From NCBI GenBank assembly GCA_026391675.1, contig JAPLDQ010000045.1:1-64000 (forward strand): a stretch of DNA of 64,000 bases. Reading direction: 5' to 3'. The position numbers and the translations under genes were made by a program. Under the pieces are notes generated by a model. That model did no database searches. It was not told the origin of the DNA and saw nothing but the letters and a program-made list of their open reading frames with translations. Positions 34,448 to 51,088 of the stretch are shown here, piece after piece. This DNA comes from Bacteroidota bacterium (GTDB lineage Bacteria > Bacteroidota > Bacteroidia > Bacteroidales > JACABE01). Numbering within the stretch: the first letter of the stretch is position 1; each line of letters starts with the position of its first letter.

Positions 34448-34482
34448 ATAGGGAGAATACTACAGTCTAAATCCCTAATCTC

Positions 34483-35229: not shown

Positions 35230-35241
35230 TATGTTGTGATT

Positions 35242-36009
35242 TTAATGTTTGTTTTTGGCATTTGCTTCATCTAATAATTTCTTTTCCAGAAACATCATTT
35301 TATGTTGTTTTATTCGTTTGGCAAAATCTATGGCATGCGTATTCATAGGCAAAACTTTTAATAAATCGATGCTTACCTTTTCAAATAATGGGAAATCGCT
35401 TTCTTCTTTAATAACTGCATCGCGGTTTAGCGGTTGATATAATGCAATGATTGCAGCCAATGAACTGCTGTTGTTTTTAACGAAATTAAGCTGAAATTCG
35501 CGTTGATTATCAAGAATTTTATAATAACAACTATCCAGATCTCGTTTAATTTCAACCCTGTTAGCCATATTAACAGCTGTTTCCCATATTTTTCCGATAG
35601 AATCGAGTTTATGTAAATTGGGTTGTAAATGATTATTTAAATCAGATAATAATTCACTATCGCGGTTTCCTTTTATACTGTATGTTTTTTCGTATTTTTC
35701 GTAATCTGTTTCAAGGAAAATATGTTCACCTTTATCTGCTATGAATGATATAAAATGATTAGCATCTTTTGTTAACATATAAATTCCTTTTTCTTCAGAC
35801 TTAATGATAAATGAAAATTTGCCTTCCTTGTCAAGTGACACAGAATCAACAGGAATAACTGCATGTATCGTTATTTTTTGCAGAAGGAATTTATGTTTAT
35901 CTGCATTGGTAATTTTACCTTCAATACAAAAACTATCAGCCGGAATTTTGTTTTTATTGTTACATGATAACAATAAAAGTGTGAGTAAAAAGAGAATAAT
36001 TTTCTGCAT
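35242..36009 (-). CDS. DUF4369 lipoprotein without a thioredoxin domain
   Basis: A 255-residue lipoprotein (lipobox LLLSC followed by NNKNK). Residues about 25-130 are a DUF4369 domain (FCIEGKITNADKHKFLLQKI, SVSLDKEGKFSFIIKSEEKG). The family is usually N-terminal to a TlpA/ResA-type thioredoxin domain; here the rest is helical, with no CxxC, so the redox part is absent. Envelope anchoring is likely; function is unknown. Promoter-like TAACTTTG (36024-36031, minus strand) lies 14 bases before the ATG. Confidence 0.8.
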   Translation of the reverse strand: MQKIILFLLTLLLLSCNNKNKIPADSFCIEGKITNADKHKFLLQKITIHAVIPVDSVSLDKEGKFSFIIKSEEKGIYMLTKDANHFISFIADKGEHIFLETDYEKYEKTYSIKGNRDSELLSDLNNHLQPNLHKLDSIGKIWETAVNMANRVEIKRDLDSCYYKILDNQREFQLNFVKNNSSSLAAIIALYQPLNRDAVIKEESDFPLFEKVSIDLLKVLPMNTHAIDFAKRIKQHKMMFLEKKLLDEANAKNKH

Positions 36010-36023
36010 TTTCTGATTTTTTG

Positions 36024-36031
36024 CAAAGTTA
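36024..36031 (-). promoter_or_regulatory. Putative -7 promoter element for the DUF4369-lpxH pair
   Basis: TAACTTTG on the minus strand matches TAnnTTTG, 14 bases upstream of ATG 36009; a leader of only about 8 nt is implied. Confidence 0.45.
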
Positions 36032-36060
36032 GTATTTGATAAATATTTCTGCTTAAAAAT

Positions 36061-37386
36061 TTACATTTCTATTAAATATCCTCTGATTGATTTGTTTGTT
36101 AATTTAAAACGTTCGTCAATACGCCAGCCTACAACCCATACAATATCTTCACCCGAGCATAACAACCATGTATTTTCTTTTTCAATAATTGACAATTTTT
36201 GATCTGTAAAAAAGTCGCTTATTTTCTTTTTGCCTTTCATTCCAAATGGATAAAAGTAATCGCCCTGCTTCCATTTTCGCAATTGCAAAGGGAATTTTAA
36301 TTTATCAAAATCAAGATAGGCATGGTTTTTATCCGGATTTATTTTTATCATCTCAGATTCTGTTGTTATCCGAAGGTCGAGAGCTATAGGAATACTTATT
36401 TGATTATCATTTTCATTAATATTAAAAACTTCATATTTTAATGCAGTTTTGCTGATTTCGGTAATTATTATATGTTCACGGTCTTTAAGCAAACGATGGG
36501 TTGATGAAAAAAATTGTTTGCCCGATATATCATCAAGTGTTGCAATCAGCTTATCAATGGCTTCGATATTGAAATTATAAGGCAATAAAAAATGGAAAAG
36601 ATAAATTCTTAAAGGATACAGCATTTTTAACCGCACAATACTCAGTTGAACAGATGATTTATGTATTTCAACAATCTCTTTTCTTTTTATTTCAAGCATT
36701 TCATTAAATACAACCTCTGTATCCTTAATTTTATTAATATTTTCGAACATTATTTTTTCGAAATCTGAAGTCAAATGCTTAAATTCAGGAATAATCTTAT
36801 GGCGTATGGCATTGCGTAAATATTTGTCAGAGTTGTTGGAACTGTCTTCGCGGTATATCAATTTATTTTCTTTAGCGAACTTTTCAATTTTATTACGGGT
36901 AGTGAACAGCAAAGGCCGGATTAAATGATTTTGCTTGGGTAAAATACCATGTAAACCTGCTATGCCTGTTCCTCTGAGTAAATTGATAAAAAAGGTTTCA
37001 ATTTCATCGTTCTGGTGATGTGCTGAGGCGTAATATTGATAATGCTCAGAAATTACAAGGCTTTCAAACCAATCATATCTTAACCTGCGGGCTGCCATTT
37101 GTACTGAAACTCCCATTTCTGCTACTGTTTCCATGGTATTAAACTGTTTTACATGAAACGGAGCATTGTATTTTTCAGCAAGGGTTTTCACAAAAGTCTC
37201 ATCAGCAAAAGCCTCATCTCCTCTCAGTTGAAAATTGCAATGTGCAATGCCAAAATCTAATCCGGCCTGATGGAAAAGTTCACACATTACTACAGAATCT
37301 ATACCACCGCTAACTGTAAGTAATATCTTATCTTTTCTGGTAAAAAGATTTTGAGATGATACGTATTTTTTAAACTGATTAAGCAT
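36061..37386 (-). CDS. tilS: tRNA(Ile)-lysidine synthase
   Basis: A 441-residue enzyme that modifies C34 of tRNA-Ile(CAU) to lysidine, changing AUG to AUA decoding. The PP-loop LLTVSGGIDSVVMCELF, DFGIAHCNFQLRGDEA and ASAHHQNDEIETFFINLLRGTG are the ATP-binding and catalytic segments. A C-terminal TilS domain (about 355-435; LRKWKQGDYFYPFGMKGKKKISDFF) is present. The length fits the long TilS form. It is 51 bp upstream of the DUF4369 gene, which has its own promoter-like box. Confidence 0.95.
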   Translation of the reverse strand: MLNQFKKYVSSQNLFTRKDKILLTVSGGIDSVVMCELFHQAGLDFGIAHCNFQLRGDEAFADETFVKTLAEKYNAPFHVKQFNTMETVAEMGVSVQMAARRLRYDWFESLVISEHYQYYASAHHQNDEIETFFINLLRGTGIAGLHGILPKQNHLIRPLLFTTRNKIEKFAKENKLIYREDSSNNSDKYLRNAIRHKIIPEFKHLTSDFEKIMFENINKIKDTEVVFNEMLEIKRKEIVEIHKSSVQLSIVRLKMLYPLRIYLFHFLLPYNFNIEAIDKLIATLDDISGKQFFSSTHRLLKDREHIIITEISKTALKYEVFNINENDNQISIPIALDLRITTESEMIKINPDKNHAYLDFDKLKFPLQLRKWKQGDYFYPFGMKGKKKISDFFTDQKLSIIEKENTWLLCSGEDIVWVVGWRIDERFKLTNKSIRGYLIEM

Positions 37387-37712
37387 AAAAATAGCTATAT
37401 TTTAAATTAAAAATAGCATCAAAGATAGTAAAAAATCCAAATTAATTTAAAATTGATAAATAAGCCATACAATTCAATTTTATAACAATTTTTCAAAATT
37501 TTATAACACTCTGTTAAAAAACATTGGATAATATTGTACTCTTAAAATTAAGATTATGAAATAATTATAGTATCTTATTTTTTATTATTTCTCTTAAAAA
37601 TATTAACGATATAATAAAACAGTTCGTCGATGAAATATGGCTGTTATTCTATTTAAGTTTTAAAAGCAAACACAATTTTATATAATTGCATATTAATTCA
37701 AAATTAAAAAAT
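37387..37712. promoter_or_regulatory. AT-rich divergent spacer between tilS and the surface-protein cluster
   Basis: A 326-bp gene-free region. A near-palindrome GCTATATTTTAA/TTAAAAATAGC (37394-37417) sits 8 bases from the tilS ATG and could form a hairpin in its leader. No clear TAnnTTTG box is seen in either direction. Nothing else is recognised. Confidence 0.35.
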
Positions 37713-39434
37713 ATGAAAAAACAAAAAATCAATTCTGTTCTGGTAATATTAATTTTATTAATGTGTGGATCAAAATTAACAGCTCAGCAATGGGGGTTGT
37801 ATACTTTTTATGCTACACAAAACACAACTCAGGCTAAATTAGTGGATACCAACGGAACGGTCTACAAAACATGGTCTTTAGCATCTTCAACAGCTTATTC
37901 AGCTTATCTTTTACCAAAAGATACCATTTTACAAACCGTAAAGGTTAACGGGAGCATCGGAGGCGGTGGTTCAACAGGTAAAGTCAGAAAAGTTAACTGG
38001 GCCGGAACAACGGTATGGGAATATACCGTATCTGATGCCTCTACCCAAATGCATCATGATGTATGTCCAATGCCAAACGGTAATGTACTTTTAATTTGTT
38101 ACGAAACAAAAAGCGCTTCCCCAACTACTGTTGGTTGTTCATCAACCATAACTGTCTGGTCTGAAAAAATCATTGAAGTTCATCCTACTGGTGCAACAAC
38201 CGGTACTATTGTATGGGAATGGCATTTGTGGGACCATCTTTGCCAAAGTGTTTACCCAAGTGTTACATCAACTTATGTTACTAATGTTTCACAACATCCT
38301 GAACTAATGAATGTAAATTACAGCATCAAACAGGATTGGTTTCATATGAATGGGATCGATTATAATGCTCAACTTGATCAGATTTTGGTAAGTTCACACG
38401 CAAATAGTGAAATTTATGTTATTGATCACAGCACAACAACAGCTCAGGCTGCTTCTCATTCAGGAGGAAATTCCGGAAAAGGCGGAGATTTTTTATATCG
38501 ATGGGGAAATCCGGCAACTTATGGACTTTCTTCTACCGGGAACAATAGTGGTTTTAATGTAATTCATGATGCACACTGGATTCCATCTAATAATCCTTTA
38601 TATCCGAATTATATGTGTGCATACAATAATAATAGTGGTGGTAATGTAAAAATAGCTATCTGGAATCCTCCATATAATGGATACAATTATACTTATACTG
38701 CTGGTTCTATCATTGGACCTACTACAGTTATTAATCCTACAATACCAGCATTTACTGCAAGTGATATGGGGAATTCACAGCAATTGGGAAATGGGAATGA
38801 ACTGGTATGTAATCCACAAGGAAGTATTTATGAAGTCAGTTCAACAGGAACTACATTGCAAACTATTGCCAGTGCCAAATCTGTTCATGCATACAGGTAT
38901 GAAGTTTGTTATGTGAGAGGTCTTACCGCTTCGGCAAGTGCATCAGCAATTCAGGTTACTTCCGGAACAGCGGTTACATTGGGTGCTTCTGCAACATCCA
39001 TTACTGAAACAGCGCCAAACTATTCCTATGCCTGGTCATCAAATACCGGATTTTCATCTGCTCAGCAAAATCCAGCCATTAACCCAACAACCACAGCCAC
39101 TTACAAAGTTATAATTACCAATATCGATTTAGGATGTGTCGACTCTGCCAGTGTAACAGTAACTGTTGAAACAGTAGGTATTTCTGAAACTGAAAAAGAA
39201 TTACAAAATATCAGGATTTATCCGAATCCTACAACTGGAATAATCAATATTGGAAATATTGATTATTGTAAGAATTTTACCATAAAAGTTTATGATACTT
39301 ATGGGAAATTACTTTATAATGAAGCAAATCAATCTGCTTTAAATTTATCTGATTTAAGCAATGGTTTATATTTTATTGATATTGCTATTAATAATAAATC
39401 AGCAAAAAGAAATAAAATCATTATTAATAAATAA
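37713..39434 (+). CDS. Arylsulfotransferase-like (ASST) secreted protein with T9SS sorting domain
   Basis: About 573 residues from ATG 37713. The signal peptide ends at LTAQ. The propeller domain (about 25-400) carries ASST landmarks: MHHDVCPMPNGNVLLICYE with a candidate catalytic His, WFHMNGIDYNAQLDQILVS, RWGNP and HDAHWIP. The family transfers sulfate between phenols, but homologues on the surface of Bacteroidota are mostly untested, so enzymatic activity is an inference. An Ig-like domain and a T9SS tail (IRIYPNPTTGIINI from about 499) follow. First gene of a ten-gene co-directional cluster. Confidence 0.85.
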   Translation: MKKQKINSVLVILILLMCGSKLTAQQWGLYTFYATQNTTQAKLVDTNGTVYKTWSLASSTAYSAYLLPKDTILQTVKVNGSIGGGGSTGKVRKVNWAGTTVWEYTVSDASTQMHHDVCPMPNGNVLLICYETKSASPTTVGCSSTITVWSEKIIEVHPTGATTGTIVWEWHLWDHLCQSVYPSVTSTYVTNVSQHPELMNVNYSIKQDWFHMNGIDYNAQLDQILVSSHANSEIYVIDHSTTTAQAASHSGGNSGKGGDFLYRWGNPATYGLSSTGNNSGFNVIHDAHWIPSNNPLYPNYMCAYNNNSGGNVKIAIWNPPYNGYNYTYTAGSIIGPTTVINPTIPAFTASDMGNSQQLGNGNELVCNPQGSIYEVSSTGTTLQTIASAKSVHAYRYEVCYVRGLTASASASAIQVTSGTAVTLGASATSITETAPNYSYAWSSNTGFSSAQQNPAINPTTTATYKVIITNIDLGCVDSASVTVTVETVGISETEKELQNIRIYPNPTTGIINIGNIDYCKNFTIKVYDTYGKLLYNEANQSALNLSDLSNGLYFIDIAINNKSAKRNKIIINK

Positions 39435-39449
39435 TTAAAAAAAGAGACT

Positions 39450-40703
39450 ATGAAAAGTATAATTTTAGCATTTACTAAAAATAGTAAATCATTATTGACA
39501 TTATTTTTTGTTTTTATATGCCTGATTTCATCAATTTCACAAATATATGCACAGACATTTATCAATTTTACCACTACAAGCGGATTGCCTGATAATTTTG
39601 TAACAGGAATAGCTGTTGATACGAATAATAAAAAATGGGTTTCTACTGCAAATGGAATCGCAAAATATAATGATACATCCTGGGTTGCCTATACTACCAC
39701 AAATGGATTAATAGATAATTATGTTTTATGTATAGCTATTGATAAAAGCAATAATGTTTGGGCAGGGACAAACTATGGTGTAAGTAAATTTAATGGTTCA
39801 ACATGGACTAACTATACCACTGCACAGGGTTTGATTGACAATAGTGTTAATTATATTTATGGTGCGGCTGATGGAAGTGTATGGTTTGGTACACAAAGTG
39901 GTATTTCAAAATATTATCAGGGTACATTTACCAATTATACAACAACTAACGGGATATTATCCAACGCTATATCATGTATAGCTGCAGATGCAAACGGTGA
40001 TGTATGGTTTGGTACACAAATGGGTGGAGTATCTAAACTGCATTCAGGAAGTTTTATTAATTATACCAAAACTTCAGTTGACAGTTTGCTTGATGTTAAT
40101 GTTTTTGCTATTACTTTTGATTTGAGCAACAATGTTTACATTGGTACTTTCTATGGTATTACCAAGCTAAATAGTAATGGAAGCTGGGTTAAAAATTACA
40201 GAAATACCGATGGCTTGTATAATAATTATGTCAGAGATTTAAAAACTGATATTAATGGGAATATCTGGGTAGGAATGTTTGCTGATTATAATTTTGACGG
40301 CGGTATCAGTCGTTTAAATGGAAGTAACTGGATATCTTTTTCTACTGCTGATGGATTAGTAAATACCCAGGTTATAAGTATTGCAATTGATAAAAATCAG
40401 AAACCCTGGATAGCCACAGGAAGCGGCGTATCCTATTTATCCGGTACAGTTGGAATTCAAACATTTTCTGATAATACAAAACTGGATATTTATCCTAATC
40501 CGGCCAATAATCAATTGATTTTAAATTGCTTAGAAAAGGAGTATGATATGAAAATTTTTGACTGTCAGGGTAAAGTTATTCTTAATCAAAAATTGCAGAA
40601 AAACGTTAATGAAATAAATATAAGTAAATTAATATCAGGAATTTACATTGTTCAACTTAGCGATAAAACATCAATTATTAATAAAAAACTTATAGTTAAA
40701 TAA
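39450..40703 (+). CDS. Secreted two-component-regulator-type propeller protein with T9SS sorting domain
   Basis: A 417-residue protein with a signal peptide ending near IYAQT. Seven or so repeats of the form TTTNGLIDNYVLCIAIDKSN, NVWAGTNYGVSKFNG belong to the Reg_prop group, normally the periplasmic sensor of hybrid two-component systems. Here no kinase is attached, and the chain ends in a T9SS sorting domain (LDIYPNPANNQLIL from about 344), so it is exported as a free propeller. It begins 15 bp after the ASST-like gene and is 23 bp upstream of the CotH gene. Confidence 0.85.
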   Translation: MKSIILAFTKNSKSLLTLFFVFICLISSISQIYAQTFINFTTTSGLPDNFVTGIAVDTNNKKWVSTANGIAKYNDTSWVAYTTTNGLIDNYVLCIAIDKSNNVWAGTNYGVSKFNGSTWTNYTTAQGLIDNSVNYIYGAADGSVWFGTQSGISKYYQGTFTNYTTTNGILSNAISCIAADANGDVWFGTQMGGVSKLHSGSFINYTKTSVDSLLDVNVFAITFDLSNNVYIGTFYGITKLNSNGSWVKNYRNTDGLYNNYVRDLKTDINGNIWVGMFADYNFDGGISRLNGSNWISFSTADGLVNTQVISIAIDKNQKPWIATGSGVSYLSGTVGIQTFSDNTKLDIYPNPANNQLILNCLEKEYDMKIFDCQGKVILNQKLQKNVNEINISKLISGIYIVQLSDKTSIINKKLIVK

Positions 40704-40726
40704 AATTCATTAACTTTATTCGCTGT

Positions 40727-43021
40727 ATGAGTAATAAAAATCATATCCATATTATTTTTATTTCATTAATTTTTGCTTTTCTAAGTAATAGTCAAAAAAT
40801 TAATGCTCAAAGCGAATTATACGATATTACCAAAATTCAGGAAATTCGTATCCATTTTTATGAATCCAACTGGAGCGAAATATTAGACAGTCTTTTCATG
40901 AATTTTGGAGAAGACAAACGCCTTGTTTGTGATATCTATATCAATGGAAAATCTTTCCCAAAGGCAGGTATACGATATAAGGGTTATAGCTCTTTTGATT
41001 CCACTCAAATGAAAAATCCATTTAATATCGATTTAAATTACACTTATAAACATCTGAATTATCAGGGAAATAATAAAATCAGACTTGCTAATGTAATTTA
41101 TGACCCATCTTTTGTTCGTGAAGTAGTAGCATATAATATAGCACAAAAATACATGCCGGCTTCTCAGGCAAACTTTGCAAAAGTATATGTAGATGATTAT
41201 TATCTCGGGCTTTATACAAATGTTGAAACTGTAAGTGACGATTTTACTGAGAAATATTTTAAGTCAAAAGGAAATAGTTTCTTTAAAGGAAGTCCTGCTG
41301 TTTTACAATATCCATTTGGCCAAAATTCTAATCTTGCCTATACACACGGATCTGATTATTCAGGATATCTGCCTTATTATAAACTCGAATCAGATTATTA
41401 TGGATGGAATGATTTATTTAATCTGATATATATTTTAAATAATGATACTTCCAATATTCCTAAAGTTTTAAATATTGACAGAACGCTATGGATGCATGCT
41501 TTCAATTATGCTATCCTTAATTTAGATAGTTATATTGGCTATTCACAGAACTATTATCTTTATAAGGATAATTATGGAATATTTAATACTATTCCCTGGG
41601 ATTTGAATATGTCATTTGGTAGTTTCAGGAATACCGATGATATATCATTAAGCCTTAGCATTGATAAAATCGGCAAACTGGATCCATTACAGCACCTTTA
41701 TAGTAATGCGTATACACCACGGCCTTTGATGAAGAACTTGTTTAGAACACCACTTTATCGGAAAATGTATATTGCTCATTTAAGGACAATTATTAAAGAG
41801 AATATTGAAAATAGTGACTACTTTAATCTGGCTTCGCAACTTCAAAATTTAATTGATTCTGCCGTTTATGCTGATACGAATAAATTTTACACTTATTCTG
41901 ATTTTAAAAACAACCTGACTGTTGATGCCGGAACAACCTCTAATAAAATACCCGGAATAAAAAGTTTAATGGATGCACGTTTGGCATATTTATTATCTTA
42001 TCCGGGCTTTTCAACAGTGCCTGTTATTTCTGATATGAAATATGAACCGACGATTGTTGAGCAAAACAAAGAGGTATGGATAAAAGCTAAAATAACTAAC
42101 TTAACATCTGCTTTTCTTTATTCCCGCAACAATAGCAAAGCCCCGTTTAATTTAACCGTAATGTATGATGACGGATTACATCATGATGAAATTGCAGGCG
42201 ATGGTATTTATGGTGCGCAATTGACTGTAAACGGAAAAACGCTGCAATATTATATCTGGGCCGAAAATGACAGTTGCGGAAGTTTTTCTCCCGAACGGGC
42301 AGCTAATGAATTTTACGAAATCCAACCCCAGTTGGTAAAAGGTGATGTAGTAATCAATGAAATTAAATTAAATGCAGGGACTGGATATGCCTCTGAAAAT
42401 GCAGGTAGCTGGATAGAACTATTTAACAATACCAACGAAGATTTTCGCTTAAAAAATATATACTTCAGTAATGATAGTTTAAATCGCTTTGTTTGGAAAC
42501 TTAAGGATACTATAATTCCTTCAAAAAACTACCTGATTCTTGGTATAAATAATTCACTCGCAAACGACAGTTTAAATATTAATTTTTCTTTGCCTGAAGC
42601 TGATGGAAAATTATATATAACATATGAGAATGGTAAAGAAATAGATGCTGTTTCTTATAAACAGCTTGCTGTAAATTTATCTTTAGGCCGTTATCCTAAT
42701 GGAAATGGTAATTTTAATCTGATGTATCCTTCATTTGCAGCTTATAATTTATATCCTAAATCTGAAAATGTAAGCTTTTATATTTATCCGAATCCTACAA
42801 CAGGCCTGCTTAATTACGAGCTTAATGCACATTTTCCATCCGTTAAAATTGAAATTTTTAATACTTTATCCCAATCCATTTTCAATAAAGAATATACTTA
42901 TGATGCTGCAGCAATTTCAACTTATAATACTATAGATATCAGCTCATTTCCAAAAGGTGTTTATGTTGTCAAAGCCAGTTGGGCCGATAACAGCGAGATT
43001 AAAAAAATTATTAAACAATAA
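40727..43021 (+). CDS. CotH-kinase protein with lamin-tail-like domain and T9SS sorting domain
   Basis: A 764-residue secreted protein with an N-terminal signal peptide ending near NAQS. The CotH kinase-like domain covers about 35-440: EIRIHFYESNWSEILDSLF, KAGIRYKGYSS, GLYTNVETVSDDFTEKYF and the metal-binding IPWDLNMSFGSF. An immunoglobulin-like segment (about 440-530) and a lamin-tail-like domain (about 538-660; DVVINEIKLN, SWIELFNNTNEDF) follow, then a T9SS tail (FYIYPNPTTGLLNY from about 683). CotH genes often sit beside VTC and DUF4956 genes in bacteria, as here, which suggests a shared pathway using polyphosphate or phosphorylation. Confidence 0.88.
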   Translation: MSNKNHIHIIFISLIFAFLSNSQKINAQSELYDITKIQEIRIHFYESNWSEILDSLFMNFGEDKRLVCDIYINGKSFPKAGIRYKGYSSFDSTQMKNPFNIDLNYTYKHLNYQGNNKIRLANVIYDPSFVREVVAYNIAQKYMPASQANFAKVYVDDYYLGLYTNVETVSDDFTEKYFKSKGNSFFKGSPAVLQYPFGQNSNLAYTHGSDYSGYLPYYKLESDYYGWNDLFNLIYILNNDTSNIPKVLNIDRTLWMHAFNYAILNLDSYIGYSQNYYLYKDNYGIFNTIPWDLNMSFGSFRNTDDISLSLSIDKIGKLDPLQHLYSNAYTPRPLMKNLFRTPLYRKMYIAHLRTIIKENIENSDYFNLASQLQNLIDSAVYADTNKFYTYSDFKNNLTVDAGTTSNKIPGIKSLMDARLAYLLSYPGFSTVPVISDMKYEPTIVEQNKEVWIKAKITNLTSAFLYSRNNSKAPFNLTVMYDDGLHHDEIAGDGIYGAQLTVNGKTLQYYIWAENDSCGSFSPERAANEFYEIQPQLVKGDVVINEIKLNAGTGYASENAGSWIELFNNTNEDFRLKNIYFSNDSLNRFVWKLKDTIIPSKNYLILGINNSLANDSLNINFSLPEADGKLYITYENGKEIDAVSYKQLAVNLSLGRYPNGNGNFNLMYPSFAAYNLYPKSENVSFYIYPNPTTGLLNYELNAHFPSVKIEIFNTLSQSIFNKEYTYDAAAISTYNTIDISSFPKGVYVVKASWADNSEIKKIIKQ

Positions 43022-43032
43022 AACAATAACAC

Positions 43033-43452
43033 ATGAAATTTATTAAGAATCCGATAACAATTATTGCAATTTTATTATTGTTATTCATTGCATCTTGTTC
43101 CAAAGAAGCAGGAGAGGGAGGTACTTCAGCAATTCAGGGGAAAGTATATGCGAGGTATTATAATAAAACATTTACCAGTTTTTTGGGTGAAAGTTATGCT
43201 CCCAATAAATACGTTTATATTTGTTATGGTGATAATATAGCTTACGGAGATAAGCAAAGAACCGATGGTGGCGGTTCATTTGAGTTTAAATATTTACGTA
43301 AAGGAAAATATAAAGTCTATACATTTTCACTGGATACTACATTAACCAATCCTGCCGGGCAATTTGAAGTATTGGAAAATGTAACCATAACTGATAATGA
43401 TCAAACTGTTACTACAAAAGATTTGCTCATTGCTGATACACCCCAGAATTAA
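43033..43452 (+). CDS. Small lipoprotein with carboxypeptidase-regulatory-like fold
   Basis: A 139-residue lipoprotein, lipobox IASC followed by SKEAGEGG. The mature part (SAIQGKVYARYYNKT, GGGSFEFKYLRKGKYKVYTFS) resembles the small beta-sandwich CarboxypepD_reg-like domains. It starts 11 bp after the CotH gene, so translational coupling is likely. Membrane partner of the exported CotH protein is a guess from position alone. Confidence 0.75.
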   Translation: MKFIKNPITIIAILLLLFIASCSKEAGEGGTSAIQGKVYARYYNKTFTSFLGESYAPNKYVYICYGDNIAYGDKQRTDGGGSFEFKYLRKGKYKVYTFSLDTTLTNPAGQFEVLENVTITDNDQTVTTKDLLIADTPQN

Positions 43453-43535
43453 GAATATCATATTTTAAATCAATAAATATCTTTTATCTGTCAAACTGTT
43501 TGTTAGAGAAGAAGATAAAATCAAAAATTAATACA

Positions 43536-44033
43536 ATGAAAAAAACCAGAATGACATTTTTAAGCTCAATGCTTATTTTGTTTTGTATGCAGATTAATGT
43601 ATTTGCTCAAAGCAAAAAGGAAATAAGAGAAAACAAAATAAATACCGAAACAGTATATAATACTAAAACCGCTGATGGTAAAGAAGTTAAAGATAGTTAT
43701 ACTGTTTTTGATAAAAACGGCAATCAAATTGAAAAAGTAGACTATAACAAAGATGGACTTGTAAAGACCACAGAAAAGCATACTTATGATGCCAATAAAA
43801 ATAAAACCGAAGAAACTGTATATGATGCCAACGGGAAACTCTTATCTAAATCATCATACTTTTACAACTCAAACGATGAAAAAATCGGAGAAATTGAATA
43901 TGATGGGAAAGGGAATATTTTGAAGCAGAGCTATACAACTTATGATGCAAAAGGGTTTAAGATTGAGAAAAAAACCTACGATGCCAACAAGAAACTTATT
44001 TCTGTAAAAAGATATGTTTATACTAAAAGATAA
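43536..44033 (+). CDS. Secreted YD/MORN-like repeat protein
   Basis: About 165 residues from ATG 43536; an upstream in-frame ATG-less extension to 43500 lacks support. The signal peptide ends VFAQ. The rest is imperfect repeats of about 20 residues, such as YDANKNKTEETVYDANGKLL and EIEYDGKGNILKQSYTTYD, typical of RHS/YD or MORN-type beta repeats. There is no catalytic motif. It ends 10 bp before the VTC gene. Confidence 0.75.
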   Translation: MKKTRMTFLSSMLILFCMQINVFAQSKKEIRENKINTETVYNTKTADGKEVKDSYTVFDKNGNQIEKVDYNKDGLVKTTEKHTYDANKNKTEETVYDANGKLLSKSSYFYNSNDEKIGEIEYDGKGNILKQSYTTYDAKGFKIEKKTYDANKKLISVKRYVYTKR

Positions 44034-44043
44034 TATCTCTGAA

Positions 44044-44799
44044 ATGAATGAATTTTCAGCCCTTCTGTCAAAGTTTGATCAAATAACATTACCAGAGATG
44101 GAAAATGTACAGTTGATGAATCGTACAGATACAAAATATGTTTTCAATATTCAATTTTTAGATAAAATATTACAAAAACTTCAACCTTATTATAGTGTAT
44201 TGAATGTTAGTGGGAGTAATATAACTGACTATCATACACTCTATTATGATACTGATGATTTATTGTTTTATAAACATCATCATGCCGGTAAAGGTAATCG
44301 AAGCAAAGTCCGTTACAGAACCTATGTCCAATCTCAAATTCATTTTTTTGAAGTAAAAAATAAAAATAATAAAGAAATTACGATAAAAAAAAGGATAAAA
44401 ATTTGTGACGATGTCTCAACTATCAACACTGAAAAAGTAGATTTTTATCACAAAAATGCCCTGGTAAATGATGCTGATTTAAAACCTAAAATATGGGTAG
44501 ATTATTCCCGTATTACATTGGTAAACAAGTCTCATCCTGAACGCCTTACTATCGATATTAACCTTAATTTTAAAAACGAAACTACAACAAAATACCTGAA
44601 TAACATTGTAATTGCAGAACTTAAGCAGGAAAAAAGAAAAAAATCAATTTTTAATGAGGTTTTAAAAACCTTTTCTATCAGAGAACTTTCAATCAGCAAA
44701 TACTGCCTGGGAGTAATAAACTTATATCAAGATGTGAAACAAAATAATTTTAAATCCAAGCTTTTAACCCTTAAAAAAATCAGTCATGAATCTAACTAA
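44044..44799 (+). CDS. VTC-domain protein, polyphosphate polymerase-like
   Basis: About 251 residues from ATG 44044. It has the tunnel-fold basic residues of the VTC domain: NRTDTKYVF with K31, RSKVRYRTY with R86/K88/R90/R92, FFEVKNKNN with E103/K105, PKIWVDYSRITL, an ERLTIDINLNF segment and SISKYCLGV. VTC4-type proteins make polyphosphate from ATP in a TTM-fold tunnel. No signal peptide is seen, so it is cytosolic, probably membrane-associated through its DUF4956 partner. The next gene overlaps it by 14 bp, implying translational coupling. Activity is inferred from the motif pattern. Confidence 0.85.
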   Translation: MNEFSALLSKFDQITLPEMENVQLMNRTDTKYVFNIQFLDKILQKLQPYYSVLNVSGSNITDYHTLYYDTDDLLFYKHHHAGKGNRSKVRYRTYVQSQIHFFEVKNKNNKEITIKKRIKICDDVSTINTEKVDFYHKNALVNDADLKPKIWVDYSRITLVNKSHPERLTIDINLNFKNETTTKYLNNIVIAELKQEKRKKSIFNEVLKTFSIRELSISKYCLGVINLYQDVKQNNFKSKLLTLKKISHESN

Positions 44800-45577
44800 A
44801 TATTGTATTTTTATTTTTATTATTTTTCTTAGTTTGATGCCTTTTACCACAGTAAAAGCTCAAACAACAGATTTATCTCAGGATAAACCTACAGAAATTA
44901 TACAACAACAGAATGAAAACAATGATAATACTGACAACTCCGATATAAAGGAAAAGAAAAAGAAAAAGAAGAATAAAGAACTACAAATTACTGAAGCTTT
45001 TTACATAGATTTATTGATAGATATATTAACAGTATTGATAGTTATTGTATTTATATATTTTAGAAATTACAGGAATAAAGAACTTTTCTTTACTTATTTT
45101 ATTTTCAATATAGCAATTTTCTTACTTACCTTTTTGTTGAATCAGGTTAAAATGTCTATGGGGGCGGCCTTTGGCCTTTTTGCTGTATTTTCAATGCTTC
45201 GTTATCGAACAGAAGGTATTTCGGTAAAGGATATGACTTATCTTTTTATTGTAATTGCTATAGGATTAATCAGTGCTATTCAACTTGATTATTATGAATT
45301 ATCCATTATAAATGGTATAATTATTATTACAACATTGATTCTAGACGGTAATATTTTATTTAAGCATGAATCAATGCGGCATGTTCTGTATGAGAAAATC
45401 GATCTCATCAAATCTGAAAATTATGATGAATTGATTAATGATCTTAAAAACCGTACAGGACTTAATATTCATAGAGTCTCAGTTAACAAGATGGACTTTT
45501 TGAAAGATACAGCTTCCATTAATGCATATTATTATGCTGAAAAGCAAAATAATCTAATTACTGAAACAGAGAGATAA
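44786..45577 (+). CDS. DUF4956 membrane protein
   Basis: A 263-residue inner-membrane protein. An N-terminal signal-like segment is followed by a Lys-rich stretch (EKKKKKKNKE), then about four membrane helices. GAAFGLFAVFSMLRYRTE and ISVKDMTYLFIVIAIGLISAI are the DUF4956 core. A C-terminal soluble domain follows. DUF4956 genes are recurrent neighbours of VTC and CotH genes across phyla; the product is thought to be a membrane partner of polyphosphate synthesis but is uncharacterised. It overlaps the VTC gene and precedes DUF2490 by 20 bp. Confidence 0.85.
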   Translation: MNLTKYCIFIFIIFLSLMPFTTVKAQTTDLSQDKPTEIIQQQNENNDNTDNSDIKEKKKKKKNKELQITEAFYIDLLIDILTVLIVIVFIYFRNYRNKELFFTYFIFNIAIFLLTFLLNQVKMSMGAAFGLFAVFSMLRYRTEGISVKDMTYLFIVIAIGLISAIQLDYYELSIINGIIIITTLILDGNILFKHESMRHVLYEKIDLIKSENYDELINDLKNRTGLNIHRVSVNKMDFLKDTASINAYYYAEKQNNLITETER

Positions 45578-45597
45578 ATCTAATTAAGCAGTACATT

Positions 45598-46281
45598 ATG
45601 AGCAATATAAAAATTTTAATATTATCATTTGGTCTGATGTTAATTTCATTGGATGTTCTTGCTCAAATGAATGATGCTCAATTGTGGACAGCTGTTAACG
45701 TGGAACATAAATTTACTTCTCATATCAATTCTTATATTGAAGGTGGTTTACGTTTTAGTGAAAATATTACCGAATTTGGAATTACCTATTCAGAAATAGG
45801 GATGGATTATAAAATTAATAAAACGTTTGAATTATCAGGAGGATATCGTTATTTTTCGAAAAGGAAAAATGAAGATTTCTATTCAATACGTCATAGATTT
45901 AATCTGGATTTATCCTTAAAAAAATCGTATTATCTTTTTAATTTTCAATTGCGTACACGAATTGAAATGGAATATAAAGATATGTATACATCTGTTGATG
46001 GATTGATACCGGAATACAAATGGCTTAATAAAGTTCAGCTTAAATATAATTTTACAAAAAAAATAAAACCTTATTTTTATTTAGAATCTTATAATTCACT
46101 TACAACATCAAAACATACCCGGAATTTTGATATAATTAAAATGAGATATTGTATTGGTGCCGAGTATAAAATAAATAAACATAATATAATAGAACTTTAT
46201 TATCTTATTGAAAATGAGTACCATCAAAAAAATCCTTATAATTATTTTGTTACCGGAATAAGCTTTAACCATAGTTTTTAG
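45598..46281 (+). CDS. DUF2490 outer-membrane beta-barrel-like protein
   Basis: A 227-residue protein with a signal peptide ending at VLAQ. Alternating strands (LWTAVNVEHKFTSHINSYIEGGLRFSEN, YRYFSKRKNEDFYSIRHRF, PYFYLESYNS) and a terminal Phe (FNHSF) match DUF2490, a family of outer-membrane barrels. Its cargo is unknown. It is packed between DUF4956 and the sensor kinase, suggesting it is the outer-membrane part of the cluster. Confidence 0.82.
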   Translation: MSNIKILILSFGLMLISLDVLAQMNDAQLWTAVNVEHKFTSHINSYIEGGLRFSENITEFGITYSEIGMDYKINKTFELSGGYRYFSKRKNEDFYSIRHRFNLDLSLKKSYYLFNFQLRTRIEMEYKDMYTSVDGLIPEYKWLNKVQLKYNFTKKIKPYFYLESYNSLTTSKHTRNFDIIKMRYCIGAEYKINKHNIIELYYLIENEYHQKNPYNYFVTGISFNHSF

Positions 46282-46308
46282 TATGATATACAGTTTAAAT
46301 ATAAGAAA

Positions 46309-47388
46309 ATGAAACGTCAGGTTGATATACCATTAAAAATATTTCTGAATATACTGGTTTGGGCTTCTATTATTTTATTCCCATATTTGTTTTCAGAATC
46401 AGATCATCACAGACCACCTTTGTCAGACAATCTGTTTGAATTATCACTTGTAATTATATTTTTCTACCTGAATTTTTTCTTTTTAATTAAACGCTATCTT
46501 TTTGGTCATAAATATATTACATTCATTACTATCAACATTGTTGCGATATTGCTTTTTCTGGTAATCAGGCTATATTATGATGATTTTCACATTTTCAATC
46601 TACCCAAACCTGAAGTTGAAAAATTCAGACCTGAAGATGGTCATGAATTTTTTATCAAAAAAAAACCACCCATTAATTTCCAAATTACTCAAATAATATT
46701 TCCATTTTTAATGTCGCTTGGTGCTGCTGTTGCAATCAGATCTACTGTAAAATCTAATGTTGAAGAGGATCAACGAAAAAAACTGGAAAATGAACATTTA
46801 AAATCAGAAATTACCTATTTAAAATATCAGATTCAACCCCATTTCTTTTTTAATACGCTTAATAATATTTATTCACTTATTGATCTGAATCCCGAAAATG
46901 CAAAAGAATCCTTACACCGGCTAAGCAAATTAATGCGTTTTATTTTATATCATGCTAATAATCAAGAAGTTCTGTTAAAAGAAGAATTGATATTTATTGA
47001 GAATTATGTTGAATTAATGAAAATCAGAACACAGGATAATGTTGCAATTTCATTAGAAATACCTCATTATATTCCAAGTATCAATTTACCGCCCTTACTA
47101 TACATCACCCTTGTTGAAAATGCTTTCAAACATGGAATTGACCCGGTAAAGAAAAGTATAATTAATATTTGGTTTTTAGTTACTGATAATCAGTTACATT
47201 TTGAAATTACCAATACGAATTATCCCAAAATGTACGAAGATAAGAGCGGATCCGGTATAGGGATTGTAAATTTAAAGAAAAGAATTGAACTTATTTTTGC
47301 CGAACAGGATTATGTTTTTGAACAAAAATTAATTGCTGAGTTTTTTGTTACAAAATTAATTATACCGATAAAAAATGGAAAAACTTAA
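46309..47388 (+). CDS. LytS-type sensor histidine kinase
   Basis: A 359-residue membrane kinase. About four membrane segments fill residues 10-145. The His_kinase domain has the phospho-accepting His near residue 175 in QIQPHFFFNTLNN, the family hallmark, then an HATPase domain (LVENAFKHGI N-box, GSGIGIVNLKKRI G-box). It overlaps the response regulator gene by 14 bp, so the two form a two-component pair. It probably senses a membrane or cell-surface signal and may regulate this cluster. Confidence 0.92.
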   Translation: MKRQVDIPLKIFLNILVWASIILFPYLFSESDHHRPPLSDNLFELSLVIIFFYLNFFFLIKRYLFGHKYITFITINIVAILLFLVIRLYYDDFHIFNLPKPEVEKFRPEDGHEFFIKKKPPINFQITQIIFPFLMSLGAAVAIRSTVKSNVEEDQRKKLENEHLKSEITYLKYQIQPHFFFNTLNNIYSLIDLNPENAKESLHRLSKLMRFILYHANNQEVLLKEELIFIENYVELMKIRTQDNVAISLEIPHYIPSINLPPLLYITLVENAFKHGIDPVKKSIINIWFLVTDNQLHFEITNTNYPKMYEDKSGSGIGIVNLKKRIELIFAEQDYVFEQKLIAEFFVTKLIIPIKNGKT

Positions 47389-48091
47389 TTGTATTATTGC
47401 TGATGATGAACCATTGGCTTTAGATCTTATCAGATTTTATATCGAAAGGGTTCCTTTTTTGAATTTGGTAAAGTCATGTTCAAATGCTTATGAGGTGCTG
47501 GAAGTTTGCAATTCTACCTCTATTGATCTGGCATTTCTGGATATTCAAATGCCAGATATTAACGGAATGCAATTAGCCCATAAGATTGACAGCAAAATCA
47601 TGATAGTTTTTACAACTGCTTTTGAAAATTATGCTATTGAAGGCTATAAGGTAAATACAATTGATTATCTCTTAAAACCATTTAATTTTGAAGAATTTTA
47701 CGATGCAGTCATTAAAGCTAAAAACATGTTTATTGCAAAAAATGAAGCTTCAATAAGTTCAAATAAACAATACATTTTTATTAAAACGGAATATAGGATT
47801 GAAAAGATTGAATTTGAAGATATTTTATACATAGAAGGCTTGAAAGACTATGTAAAAATATATTTACAAAATCAAATAAATCCTGTATTATGCCTGATTA
47901 GTATGAAAAGCATAAGCGAGACCCTCCCTCATCAGCAATTTATGCGTGTCCATCGTTCATTTATTGTAAACTTATCTAAAATAAAAACCATTGAACGAAG
48001 CCGGATTATTTTTGGTAACACTTTTATACCTGTTTCTGATAATTATAAAGAGCAATTCCGCGATTTTGTCAGAAATCAATTGTTAGAATAG
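47375..48091 (+). CDS. LytTR-family response regulator
   Basis: A 238-residue two-domain regulator. The receiver domain has DDEP near the N-terminus, the phospho-Asp in LAFLDIQMPDING near residue 55 and the LKPF motif with conserved Lys. The LytTR DNA-binding domain (about 130-235) includes YIEGLKDYVKIYL and FMRVHRSFIVNLSKI. It pairs with the upstream kinase. Targets are likely direct repeats in promoters, which are not identified here. Confidence 0.93.
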   Translation: MEKLNCIIADDEPLALDLIRFYIERVPFLNLVKSCSNAYEVLEVCNSTSIDLAFLDIQMPDINGMQLAHKIDSKIMIVFTTAFENYAIEGYKVNTIDYLLKPFNFEEFYDAVIKAKNMFIAKNEASISSNKQYIFIKTEYRIEKIEFEDILYIEGLKDYVKIYLQNQINPVLCLISMKSISETLPHQQFMRVHRSFIVNLSKIKTIERSRIIFGNTFIPVSDNYKEQFRDFVRNQLLE

Positions 48092-48152
48092 ACTTGTATT
48101 TTTTTTACAATAAACTATATATTATTCAGCATAAGAGTTTCTTAAAATTCTT

Positions 48153-48160
48153 TACTTTTG
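48153..48160 (+). promoter_or_regulatory. Putative -7 promoter element for the coiled-coil protein
   Basis: TACTTTTG matches TAnnTTTG, 37 bases before ATG 48198. Confidence 0.45.
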
Positions 48161-48197
48161 TAGATGTAATTATATTTACATTAAATCAAAAAAGTTT

Positions 48198-49655
48198 ATG
48201 GATAGCGATAGAATAAGAGACGACGAAAGTTTGAGAAATTATAAGGAACTGAAGAATAAACTTGAACAAACGATTAGTAAAGTCAGTAAATTAAGCGATT
48301 TACGTGAAGCAAAAGGCTTGTTGATAGAAGTTCAGCAAAGTTTTAAAGGATTAAAATTACAACGCGAAGACCGAGAAGAGTTATATAATAAACTTCAGGA
48401 TAATTTTGCAATCATCAACCAAAAAATAAATGACGAGCGTCTGAATTTTGAGAACGAAGCTGCGTTGAATTACTTTAATATCAAGAATAAAGTGGATGAA
48501 GCCACTTATATGGTCCATCATTCAAGGGATTCAAAAGAAACCTGGAATTTTTTAATTGAAGTGCAGTCATTGTTTAAAGGTGCAAAATTACAGCGTGAAC
48601 ACCGCGAAACGCTGTATGCCAGGCTGCAGGAGGCTTTTATTGCTTTGAAAGAAATTAAAGACTATGAAAATAAGAGCTTTGTTGCAGAAGCAGTTCAAAA
48701 TTACTCGCAATTAAAACAAGGTGTAGATGAAGGTATTGAATTTTGCAATAATACTGATGATATCAGAGGTGCAAAAGACAGACTGATCAATTTACAAAGT
48801 GCTCTACGCGAAGCAGTTTTAACGAAAGAGCAGCGGGACGAATTACATACTAAAATTCAGACTGCATTTGATTTCATTAACTTACGTAAAGAAGAAGAAA
48901 CAGAAAAGAACACTGCTTTGTCCGAAACACAGTATGAAGATTTGAGCCCTAAAGTAAAGAATCTTTTAGCACTTGCTCAACAATCCAATGATTTCAAGAC
49001 GATTCGTGAAGAACTGAAATTACTTCAAACCGGGATAAAAGACTCAGGTTTGTTATGGGAGCAACGTCATGAGCTACAAACAATATTGCAACAAACTTTT
49101 GAAATATTGAACGAACGACAGGATGCTGACAGAAATAATTATACAAAAGAAGCTTCAGAAAATTATAAATGGTTGAAGTCATTGGTTGAAAAAGGCTTGT
49201 TACAGGCTGAAGAAACACATGAATACAAAGACACACGCGAATTTCTGAAAAAGATACAATCGGAATTCAAAGGTATTAAAATGATAAAAGAAGAACGGGA
49301 AGAACTCTATTCCCGTTTGCAATCTGCATTCGAAATACTGAATACACGCGTTGATGAGTATTTTCATACCAAGAAAAAGAACTGGGAAGTAAGAATGCAG
49401 TATAAACTTGCCGAAACCAATACAGAAATACATGAACTTAAAGCCAGTATTGAGAGAGACAAAGAGAACCTGTCAGAATTGGAAGACCATCTGGATATTC
49501 TGAAATCTTCGGGTAAGGACAATACTGCCAGAGCAGGCATTGAAGCCCGTATTATATCTGCTAAAGCCGGAATTGAAAAGAAATTGCAGGAGATTAACCG
49601 TCTTGAAAAAGAAATGCAGGATTTAAAAGACAGGATTGATCCATCTGAAGAATAA
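48198..49655 (+). CDS. Cytosolic coiled-coil repeat protein (DUF349-like)
   Basis: A 485-residue helical protein with no signal peptide. Five imperfect repeats of about 70-75 residues each contain the pattern LxxxLxxxFKGxKLxREDREELYxKLQxAF (for example LLIEVQQSFKGLKLQREDRE and FLIEVQSLFKGAKLQREHRE). A long C-terminal coiled coil (ELKASIERDKENLSELEDHLD) follows. The repeat resembles DUF349 (LQxxWKxxGxxxRExxExLWxxF). Function is unknown; a structural or RNA/ribosome-related role has been suggested for DUF349. It stands alone between two oppositely oriented blocks. Confidence 0.75.
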   Translation: MDSDRIRDDESLRNYKELKNKLEQTISKVSKLSDLREAKGLLIEVQQSFKGLKLQREDREELYNKLQDNFAIINQKINDERLNFENEAALNYFNIKNKVDEATYMVHHSRDSKETWNFLIEVQSLFKGAKLQREHRETLYARLQEAFIALKEIKDYENKSFVAEAVQNYSQLKQGVDEGIEFCNNTDDIRGAKDRLINLQSALREAVLTKEQRDELHTKIQTAFDFINLRKEEETEKNTALSETQYEDLSPKVKNLLALAQQSNDFKTIREELKLLQTGIKDSGLLWEQRHELQTILQQTFEILNERQDADRNNYTKEASENYKWLKSLVEKGLLQAEETHEYKDTREFLKKIQSEFKGIKMIKEEREELYSRLQSAFEILNTRVDEYFHTKKKNWEVRMQYKLAETNTEIHELKASIERDKENLSELEDHLDILKSSGKDNTARAGIEARIISAKAGIEKKLQEINRLEKEMQDLKDRIDPSEE

Positions 49656-49683
49656 AATTATTTCAAACAACTTAGTGTATAGA

Positions 49684-51069
49684 TTATTTTAAATCATACA
49701 CTGCTATATTTTCATTGTTTATAATGCATTTATAGGGTATACTATCCTTAAAACTATTTTTATTTACAACAATAAATTTACAACCTTTAGCTTTAATATC
49801 ATTCAGGAATAAACTGTCGCTTAATTGATTATCTTTACAATTCCAGCCTTTTCTGTGTGTAAAATATAAAAGCTGTGGATTTCCGTTTCCGTTGATTACG
49901 ATTAAATCCTTTTTTTCTGAAAAAGAATCAGCAATGCTCTCTAGTTCAGGTTTATATTTTTCTGAAGGCTTGATAAAAAAATCATGCTGTTGATTTGCAA
50001 GGCTTTCCAATGAAATTAACAGTAAAGGGATATATAAATATTTTAGTGGAAATTTTGAAAGTCCATAGCCTGCTACTAATGCCATTACAGGTGTAAACGG
50101 GATAATATAATAGCTGTGTAAGGGAAATACAGCGCCGGTTTTCAGGATAAAAAGCAGAAATGTAATTGTAATGATGGTAATGCCTGATTTGAGATATAAG
50201 TTTTTATCTTTAAAAATTATAAATATACCAATCAGGAAAAATATAAAAGCAAGATAAGAGGCCAATGAACTGAAATAAAATTTTTCGAAAAACTCAGGAA
50301 TTAAAGGTAATATTTCCCTGAAACCTTCAGTTAATCCTTTCGGAAAATACAACTGATAATGATAATTATTCAGCAGATAGGGCACCCAGTAAAAATACCA
50401 TAAACACACAATAGCAAAGCTTACAGCAGTTGTTAGAAATAAAAACATTTTTCGTTTTAACGGAATTTCTTTTATTAAAATGATAATTGAAACAACTGAA
50501 ATTAAACTCAATGCAGGTATTTTACATAAGCTTCCTAAACTTATAAATAAGAAGAAAAGTAATAATTTAAGATTAGAACCCTTGGTAAGATATAAATATC
50601 CATAATAAAGCCCGATAATTACCAGTGCAACACTGAAGGTGTCGGGCATAATTTTTCTGGAAAAGCCAAACCAGATGGATGACAGCAAAATAATAGCAGC
50701 ACTGAAGGCAATTTTTTTATCCGTAATTTTCTCTATCAGCAAATAGAAATAATATATACCTATACTGGAAACTATAAGATTTATTAATCTTCCATACCAG
50801 TGAGCATAATCAAAAACCAGTGAAACAATGTATATCAGATAGTTGAAAAACGGAAATTCGGAACCGATAATACCAGACTGATTTCCGCCCATATCTATTT
50901 GCGGATACAATATATTATGATTTCCTTCGTAGAAATTGCGGGCAATCATACATGTTAATGCCTGACGCCAGTTATGTCCGATCTCAAGCGGTGGATTAGT
51001 AATCCCAATGAGTCGTAATAAAAAGAAAATAATAATCCAGAATTCAATCCGGTAAAGTAATTTTCTCAA
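49684..51069 (-). CDS. GT-C-type membrane glycosyltransferase (family 39-like)
   Basis: A 461-residue polytopic protein with about ten membrane helices. The N-terminal loop EIGHNWRQALTCMIARNFYEG contains the acidic and His residues typical of polyprenyl-phosphate sugar transferases of the ArnT/PMT group (dolichyl-phosphate-mannose-mannosyltransferase-like). IMPDTFSVALVIIGLYYG and later PVMALVAGYGLSKF support the family. It acts in the inner membrane, adding a sugar from a lipid carrier to an envelope target. It is 19 bp downstream of the Tudor-like gene on the same strand. Confidence 0.78.
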   Translation of the reverse strand: MRKLLYRIEFWIIIFFLLRLIGITNPPLEIGHNWRQALTCMIARNFYEGNHNILYPQIDMGGNQSGIIGSEFPFFNYLIYIVSLVFDYAHWYGRLINLIVSSIGIYYFYLLIEKITDKKIAFSAAIILLSSIWFGFSRKIMPDTFSVALVIIGLYYGYLYLTKGSNLKLLLFFLFISLGSLCKIPALSLISVVSIIILIKEIPLKRKMFLFLTTAVSFAIVCLWYFYWVPYLLNNYHYQLYFPKGLTEGFREILPLIPEFFEKFYFSSLASYLAFIFFLIGIFIIFKDKNLYLKSGITIITITFLLFILKTGAVFPLHSYYIIPFTPVMALVAGYGLSKFPLKYLYIPLLLISLESLANQQHDFFIKPSEKYKPELESIADSFSEKKDLIVINGNGNPQLLYFTHRKGWNCKDNQLSDSLFLNDIKAKGCKFIVVNKNSFKDSIPYKCIINNENIAVYDLK

Positions 51070-51088
51070 AATATATAAGGATAAATGA

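Follow-up and report, generated by a model that had tools for sequence, protein, structure and literature searches.

What does a bacterial gene cluster do when it places a yeast-like polyphosphate polymerase-like protein beside a membrane protein of unknown function, an exported CotH-family kinase and a presumed outer-membrane barrel? This question was raised by ten genes at positions 37713-48091 of a 64,000-nucleotide stretch of Bacteroidota DNA (contig JAPLDQ010000045.1, positions 1 to 64,000), here called the window. An earlier note described them as a same-strand cluster with gaps under about 85 bp and two 14-bp overlaps, and this description was confirmed. All ten open reading frames lie on the + strand, and the junctions are 39434/39450 (15 bp), 40703/40727 (23), 43021/43033 (11), 43452/43536 (83), 44033/44044 (10), 44799/44786 (14-bp overlap), 45577/45598 (20), 46281/46309 (27) and 47388/47375 (14-bp overlap). 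No + strand terminator-like site falls in a junction, although transcription as one unit was not shown. The next + strand gene starts 106 bp on, at 48198, and has no Pfam match at 0.001, and the gene before the cluster is tilS on the other strand.

The ten proteins were first assigned with Pfam and NCBIfam profiles. The first gene (37713..39434) encodes an exported ASST-like (arylsulfotransferase-family) protein (PF05935, 1.1e-21; Por_Secre_tail, 3.7e-14), and the second (39450..40703) an exported Reg_prop propeller protein (PF07494, 1.3e-22; tail, 1.6e-14; TIGR04183, 52.7 bits). The third (40727..43021) encodes a CotH-family kinase with a lamin-tail-like domain (PF08757, 8e-40; 137.7 bits against a cut-off of 23.8; TIGR04183, 38 bits over a cut-off of 23). 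The T9SS type A sorting domain (TIGR04183) exceeds its curated cut-off on all three of these proteins, whereas the note had named only CotH as T9SS-exported. The secretion system is also represented in the genome, with SprA at 2697.7 bits and GldD at 33785. The gene at 43033..43452 has no family over cut-off and encodes a small lipoprotein, with an LFIASC lipobox read from the sequence, that recurs just upstream of VTC. The gene at 43536..44033 encodes an exported protein with weak YD/MORN-like repeats (TIGR01643, 4.9e-4). These are followed by the VTC-type protein (44044..44799; PF09359, 8.4e-28; 97.9 bits against 23), the DUF4956 membrane protein (44786..45577; PF16316, 6.8e-50), the DUF2490 protein (45598..46281; PF10677, 3.3e-23), a LytS-type sensor histidine kinase (46309..47388; PF06580, 1.8e-23) and a LytTR response regulator (47375..48091; PF04397, 6e-20; PF00072, 6.6e-19). 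The DUF2490 protein is a presumed outer-membrane beta-barrel and is the only match in its own genome.

Next, we asked whether the CotH domain and the VTC domain retain their catalytic residues. Asp267 and Asp292 of the window CotH align with Asp residues 23 apart in the solved Bacillus CotH 5jd9. In B. subtilis CotH, changes at D228 and D251 are inactivating (PMC7821199), and that these are the aligned pair was inferred from the spacing. The two positions are conserved in 38 of 42 and 44 of 45 rows with letters there (63 rows in all; single domain pieces were used, hence many gaps). Kinase activity was not assayed. Compared with the Bacillus secretory kinase (5jd9/5jda), the window CotH has the same domain and the aligned Asp pair but carries the T9SS tail and a lamin-tail-like domain, and it is not a spore protein here. 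For VTC, an alignment to 8i6v_E matched R90, R92 and E192 to yeast Vtc4 R264, R266 and E426, whose joint substitution gave a catalytically impaired complex (PMC9911596). These residues are kept in 188, 187 and 187 of 188 VTC copies. The predicted AF2 model (pLDDT 93.4) has the tunnel fold, with Vtc4 3g3r as the best PDB match (Z 18.1, rmsd 3.1, 212 aligned). The eight best rows of the fold comparison are yeast VTC chains (Z 15.3-18.1), and the best other tunnel enzyme has 14.9. Yeast Vtc2, which is non-catalytic, matches the fold as well as Vtc4 does, so the fold alone does not show polymerase activity, and polyP synthesis from ATP was not measured.

The DUF4956 protein carries an invariant RxR (Arg139 and Arg141 in the window) in 183 of 183 copies. 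Its AF2 model has a pLDDT of 76.9. A relation to a known channel or to MgtC was sought, but the PDB comparison gave no informative match (best Z 5.5, 86 aligned; middling Z is common) and no solved relative was found by sequence; such a relation is not excluded, only not found. In the yeast VTC complex, Vtc4/Vtc3/Vtc1 (PMC9911596), the polymerase has a membrane partner with conserved basic residues. The RxR is suggestive of a similar part, but with no fold link the data do not decide whether DUF4956 is such a partner with basic residues in the path, and its channel role rests on neighbourhood and invariant arginines. The window protein further differs from yeast VTC in having no SPX domain, since only the VTC domain was found in the 251-261 aa protein, and in the extra envelope parts.

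The note had put forward a lack of conservation of these gene neighbourhoods as one of the results that would refute its proposal, and we compared the VTC/DUF4956 neighbourhoods in Bacteroidota. VTC and DUF4956 lie within 6 kb of each other in 82 of 82 Bacteroidota-phylum loci and often overlap. These loci come in two forms. Clade A, the form of the window, has DUF2490 in 28 of 41 loci and a HlyD/EmrA-type adaptor in 0 of 41, with the lipoprotein profile near 16 of 41 and the YD profile near 12 of 41. Clade B has the adaptor in 36 of 41 and DUF2490 in 0 of 41. In 26 presumed single-membrane loci (6 from a plasmid collection, 20 Chloroflexota), neither part was found. Envelope types were not tested, and 3 of the 20 Chloroflexota loci end within 1 kb upstream of VTC, where an adaptor gene would lie. 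Ten Chloroflexota copies nest inside clade A (51-row clade, 100/100) and lack DUF2490, but they form one group in the tree (90/81) and so count as about one event. Thirteen of 41 clade A loci lack DUF2490 and 5 of 41 clade B loci lack the adaptor; only two of these 18 are cut within 1.2 kb of VTC, so the envelope part is not strictly linked. One Caldisericaceae locus has no adaptor in view, but its contig ends 203 bp upstream of VTC and it was not counted as support.

The counts are of loci, and some genomes give two or three. They were made on six-frame translations, because an apparent VTC fusion in one locus (a 787-aa frame) and the apparent lack of VTC in three others were artefacts of ORF picking in overlapping open frames. 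Two partial VTC rows of one genome (of 55 rows; 52 fetched plus the window) and one weak partial row of another (of 21; 20 fetched) were dropped before counting. A further set of named loci comprises the best 80 of more and overlaps the phylum sample, and it is therefore reported apart. Two of the numbered loci (L135 and L245) are the same contig.

The identity of the adaptor was examined further because it rested at first on Pfam matches in 3 of 4 proteins tried, with no match for a short 233-aa copy. Of 32 adaptor proteins, only 11 match Pfam HlyD_3 on their own and 10 match HlyD_D23. However, 30 of 32 match the NCBIfam HlyD model and 29 of 32 an RND adaptor model at E 0.001, and the profile of the 32 proteins finds solved EmrA (4.7e-18) and MacA. 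The label holds at the level of the adaptor superfamily. Adaptor domain hits number 59.8 per Mb within 6 kb of VTC and 3.6 beyond it. The usual pump partners of EmrA/MacA/HlyD periplasmic adaptors (MFS, ABC, RND) are replaced in clade B by VTC-DUF4956 next door.

The note's interpretation, that a cytoplasmic polyphosphate or phosphate signal is linked to protein phosphorylation at the cell surface, with a sensor pair in the combination, was supported only in part. The recurrence of the CotH/VTC/DUF4956 triad across bacteria, the T9SS tail of CotH and the DUF2490 barrel as a recurring partner are supported. The LytS/LytTR pair is not supported as a general feature and is a local addition. LytR profile domain hits are no denser within 6 kb of VTC than beyond it in the 188 loci (16.6 vs 16.7 per Mb; LytS 4.0 vs 3.6), although other two-component genes recur at single-membrane loci (Response_reg in 13 and HisKA in 10 of 113 neighbours). 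CotH lies within 6 kb of VTC in only 32 of 82 phylum loci, so the kinase looks like an optional client and not the core. The swap between a periplasmic adaptor and an outer-membrane barrel, and the lack of both in presumed single-membrane cells, fit better with the polymer itself crossing the envelope than with a signal kept in the cytoplasm.

We consider it about as likely as not that the core is a bacterial counterpart of the yeast VTC machine. In this view, the VTC protein would make polyphosphate from ATP on the cytoplasmic side, and DUF4956 would dock it and pass the growing chain through the inner membrane, with its arginine pair at the mouth of the path. In two-membrane bacteria an extra part would serve the rest of the envelope: the DUF2490 barrel here, and an inner-membrane-anchored adaptor in the sister form. 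Outside, the ASST-like, propeller and CotH proteins and the lipoprotein would use or anchor the polymer or phosphate, and LytS/LytTR would set expression in this sub-type. Our data establish the gene content, the conservation and residues, the predicted VTC fold and the distribution of the envelope parts; catalysis, transport, its direction and the client role are inferences, as no activity, transport or localization was measured. PPK1 is present elsewhere, so a plain cytoplasmic polyP store does not need this enzyme. Bacterial polyphosphate is usually ascribed to PPK1/PPK2 in the cytoplasm. A widespread VTC-DUF4956 pair that makes and exports the polymer would add a second route with a different destination, could explain polyphosphate outside the cytoplasm, would give DUF4956 and DUF2490 a testable job and would offer a phosphate source for secreted kinases. 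A bolder extension, which we think unlikely but which is not excluded, is that the outer parts of this synthase-translocase are fitted to the envelope and that the exported polyphosphate is the phosphate donor for secreted CotH kinases. This would answer how a kinase works outside the cell, where ATP is scarce.

Another possible explanation, though a doubtful one, is that VTC, DUF4956 and CotH assist or regulate an exported polysaccharide by phosphorylating glycan or matrix protein, with polyphosphate as a local phosphate or energy source. The triad is already in print as an accessory group of Gram-positive Pel loci, contiguous with pelDEADAFG in streptococci and clostridia, with a variant set in bifidobacteria (PMC7112168), where a role for CotH is only suggested. 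Two plasmid loci lie beside glycosyltransferase genes, and the carbohydrate-binding Cthe_2159 family occurs near 11 of 188 VTC loci (found with Pfam in two of the loci). The window shares the three families but lies in a presumed two-membrane bacterium, with DUF2490, the lipoprotein, the repeat protein and a T9SS-exported CotH. No pel gene or glycan synthase was found among the ten genes and the seven flanking genes scanned (33785-51622; farther genes were not scanned); one mannosyltransferase-like gene lies on the other strand at 49684. This reading also does not explain why an adaptor or a DUF2490 gene rides with VTC-DUF4956 in 64 of 82 phylum loci.

The remaining explanations seem unlikely. 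The note's model, in which the cytoplasmic signal would be sensed by LytS/LytTR, draws on the T9SS tail and presumed catalytic Asp pair of CotH, on the LytS/LytTR pair ending the cluster in the window and two other loci, and on the two-component genes near single-membrane loci, but it gives no role to the adaptor and does not predict its swap with DUF2490. VTC-DUF4956 could instead make an internal polyP store or act as a triphosphatase at the membrane, with envelope genes only co-regulated, since tunnel enzymes with other reactions share the fold; however, PPK1 is already present and a mere store would not need an adaptor gene near VTC in 36 of 41 clade B loci. The cluster could also be a loose one, with the upstream surface proteins and downstream sensor unrelated to VTC-DUF4956-DUF2490. 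Many clade A loci have only VTC-DUF4956(-DUF2490), and ASST beside CotH occurs away from VTC (for example, on contig G052:C35). Against this, the order ASST-PROP-CotH-LIPO-YD-VTC-DUF4956-DUF2490 recurs in 4 of 29 other order-level loci (L033, L044, L052 and L059), in the same genus and three other families, and two of them (L044 and L052) have LytS-LytTR behind. CotH lies within 10 kb of 11 of 30 order-level VTC loci against about 0.34 expected (from 118 CotH rows in about 207 Mb). ASST likewise lies within 10 kb of 7 of 30, one of these weak, against about 0.1. The near/far ASST density (8.5 vs 13.2 per Mb) is misleading because ASST lies about 5-6 kb from VTC, at the cut.

Among the papers found in an open-licence library, none was, by its title or the text examined, about a link of VTC or DUF4956 to HlyD or DUF2490. 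One table row prints DUF4956 and DUF2490 side by side, as B. thetaiotaomicron BT3498-BT3499 (PMC10434189; transcriptome value -7.6, p 0.175), and the HlyD rows of that paper are at other loci. The same adjacent pair makes this a likely clade A locus in a model organism, although its VTC gene was not looked at. Lastly, a direct repeat, TTATAACA-N13-TTATAACA, lies upstream of the first gene at 37480..37508 (+). LytTR sites are direct repeats with a 21-bp period, and this repeat is a weak candidate regulator site. In the genome, 11 places with up to 1 mismatch face 10 for the reversed pattern, so the count is not above the control and the site is a lead only, but the repeat is near-copied in the same-genus locus L033.

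Ten + strand genes were found at positions 37713-48091, as described in the earlier note, and its observation held. They encode an ASST-like protein, a Reg_prop propeller and a CotH kinase, all three of which carry T9SS type A tails, followed by a small lipoprotein, an exported YD/MORN-like repeat protein, VTC, DUF4956, DUF2490, a LytS-type kinase and a LytTR regulator. The gaps between the genes are 10-83 bp and there are two 14-bp overlaps. No + strand terminator-like site lies in a junction. The flanking genes look like they serve other functions, with tilS and a calcineurin-like phosphoesterase on the other strand before the cluster and an unassigned gene 106 bp after it. SprA is present in the genome, so the T9SS tails have a machine, and a GldD gliding-motility lipoprotein gene was found at 33785-34366 (+), a few kb before the cluster. 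From T9SS and kinship we infer that the genome belongs to Bacteroidota. A second, stronger CotH domain (5.3e-63) lies at 2265-3356 (+) in the same window, away from VTC. Upstream of the operon, at 37480-37508, there is a direct repeat, TTATAACA-N13-TTATAACA, which is near-copied in L033, a VTC locus from the same genus. Similar sites precede other genes on contigs C5, C7 and C27, but their number was not above that of a reversed control.

We next examined 59 genomes, the window's own genome and its relatives, most of them from the same order. VTC was found in 30 of these genomes, DUF4956 in 33 and CotH in 37. DUF4956 is the neighbor of VTC in all 30 VTC loci, with 27 in the order VTC-DUF4956 and 3 reversed. 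The eight-gene order ASST-PROP-CotH-LIPO-YD-VTC-DUF4956-DUF2490 occurs in the window and in 4 of 29 other loci, which come from the same genus and three other families; LytS-LytTR follow in the window and in two of these. By our arithmetic, CotH lies within 10 kb of 11 of 30 VTC loci, against about 0.34 expected from 118 CotH rows in about 207 Mb. An ASST-like gene also sits a few kb from CotH on contig C35 of genome G052 and contig C28 of genome G002, neither of which is the VTC contig. This could be a surface module of its own, although in the fragmented G002 assembly it may be a split of one locus. In L113-L116, four DUF4956 loci, no VTC was found next to DUF4956 and the neighbors differ, for example CotH in L113, Ank/metallophosphoesterase in L114 and DUF5723 in L116.

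Next, 296 genomes of the phylum were taken, of which 48, including the window's own, have VTC. A further 52 loci were fetched and all loci were searched in six frames with profiles built from them. VTC falls into two forms by profile score. In clade A, the form of the window (41 loci), DUF4956 was found in 41, DUF2490 in 28, the lipoprotein in 16, the repeat protein in 12, CotH in 14 and an adaptor in 0. In clade B (41 loci), DUF4956 was found in 41, the adaptor in 36, CotH in 18 and DUF2490 in 0. A third small VTC group in Bacteroidota (loci L039, L055, L057, L095 and L098) has DUF4956 upstream of VTC, CotH near 4 of 5, and neither adaptor nor DUF2490. Cthe_2159-type carbohydrate-binding proteins lie beside VTC-DUF4956 in loci L047, L072 and L103 (PF14262 by Pfam in L047 and L103, and by our profile in L072); by profile they occur at 11 of 188 loci, 5 of them Chloroflexota.

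The adaptor is of the HlyD/EmrA/MacA kind, as the profile of 32 of these proteins finds solved EmrA (4.7e-18) and MacA. Taken singly, 30 of 32 match the NCBIfam HlyD model, but only 11 of 32 match Pfam HlyD_3. The eight adaptor sequences inspected by eye begin with a hydrophobic stretch like a single membrane helix. In the best 80 named loci, which are mostly from Bacteroidota and relatives and overlap the phylum sample, the adaptor is near VTC in 76, mostly directly upstream. Over all 188 loci, adaptor domain hits are 59.8 per Mb within 6 kb of VTC and 3.6 per Mb beyond. A Pfam scan of 103 unlabeled neighbors at clade A loci showed no HlyD among 25 of the 194 families.

If the adaptor and DUF2490 serve the periplasm and outer membrane, single-membrane bacteria should have the core without them, and this prediction was put to the test. 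All six VTC hits in a plasmid collection are from Actinomycetota or Bacillota; DUF4956 was found in 6 of 6, CotH in 4 of 6, the adaptor in 0 and DUF2490 in 0. In Chloroflexota, the phylum of the Anaerolineae genome G354, 19 of 201 genomes have VTC, and of the 20 loci fetched, DUF4956 was found in 16, CotH in 8, the adaptor in 0 and DUF2490 in 0. Three of these 20 loci end within 1 kb upstream of VTC and one within 1 kb downstream, so they test less. Of the four named loci without an adaptor, two are Anaerolineae and Chloroflexi (L135, L138), one is a Bacteroidetes MAG (L118), and one, L121, is cut 203 bp upstream and is uninformative. A tree of 108 VTC rows was also built. The bootstrap was not fully settled, and the envelope types were not tested here. 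The tree places ten Chloroflexota rows inside the 51-row clade A (100/100) and one, L245, inside a 99/95 branch of adaptor-bearing rows. On this tree the adaptor label needs 3 changes, against 30.4 when shuffled. These are few independent events.

Next, the residues and predicted folds were compared with known structures. The VTC model (pLDDT 93.4) matches yeast Vtc4, Vtc2 and Vtc3 chains best (eight rows, Z 15.3-18.1), followed by other tunnel enzymes from 14.9 down, with one further Vtc4 row at 14.1. Vtc4 R264, R266 and E426 (PMC9911596) correspond to R90, R92 and E192, which are kept in 188, 187 and 187 of 188 loci. DUF4956 has R139 and R141 in 183 of 183 sequences. By reading charges with the positive-inside rule, we infer that these arginines lie at the cytoplasmic end of the third of five helices. 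In yeast, basic residues in the VTC channel are needed for vacuolar polyP (PMC9911596), but this is an analogy and not homology. No fold relative of DUF4956 was found in the sequence and structure comparisons. CotH Asp267 and Asp292 align with the presumed catalytic pair in 5jd9 (PMC7821199).

The best reading of these data, which we hold with moderate confidence only, is that VTC would carry out ATP-driven polyP synthesis, the polymer would pass through DUF4956, an envelope part fitted to the cell type would follow, and the exported proteins would act on the surface. PPK1 is present elsewhere in the genome, which makes a second purely cytoplasmic maker less likely. However, 13 of 41 clade A loci and 5 of 41 clade B loci have no recognized envelope part nearby, which counts against this reading. 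The regulator pair is a local feature: LytR and LytS types are not enriched near VTC, although two-component genes with OmpR-type output (Trans_reg_C in 10 of 113 neighbors) recur at single-membrane loci.

Parts of this arrangement are already in print. The CotH, VTC and DUF4956 triad has been described with Pel loci, together with the suggestion that CotH may regulate Pel (PMC7112168). We found no paper on the link to the adaptor or to DUF2490 in the open-licence literature searched and, thus, its novelty is likely but not proven. VTC, CotH and a 222-226 aa membrane protein annotated as tubulin/FtsZ are listed in a C. perfringens locus (PMC2879425); our guess is that the membrane protein is DUF4956. 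DUF4956 and DUF2490 stand side by side in one B. thetaiotaomicron table row (PMC10434189).

Elsewhere in the window, G+C falls to 0.230 at 12001-16000, against 0.274-0.395 in the rest, over a 1252-aa ORF at 11535-15293.
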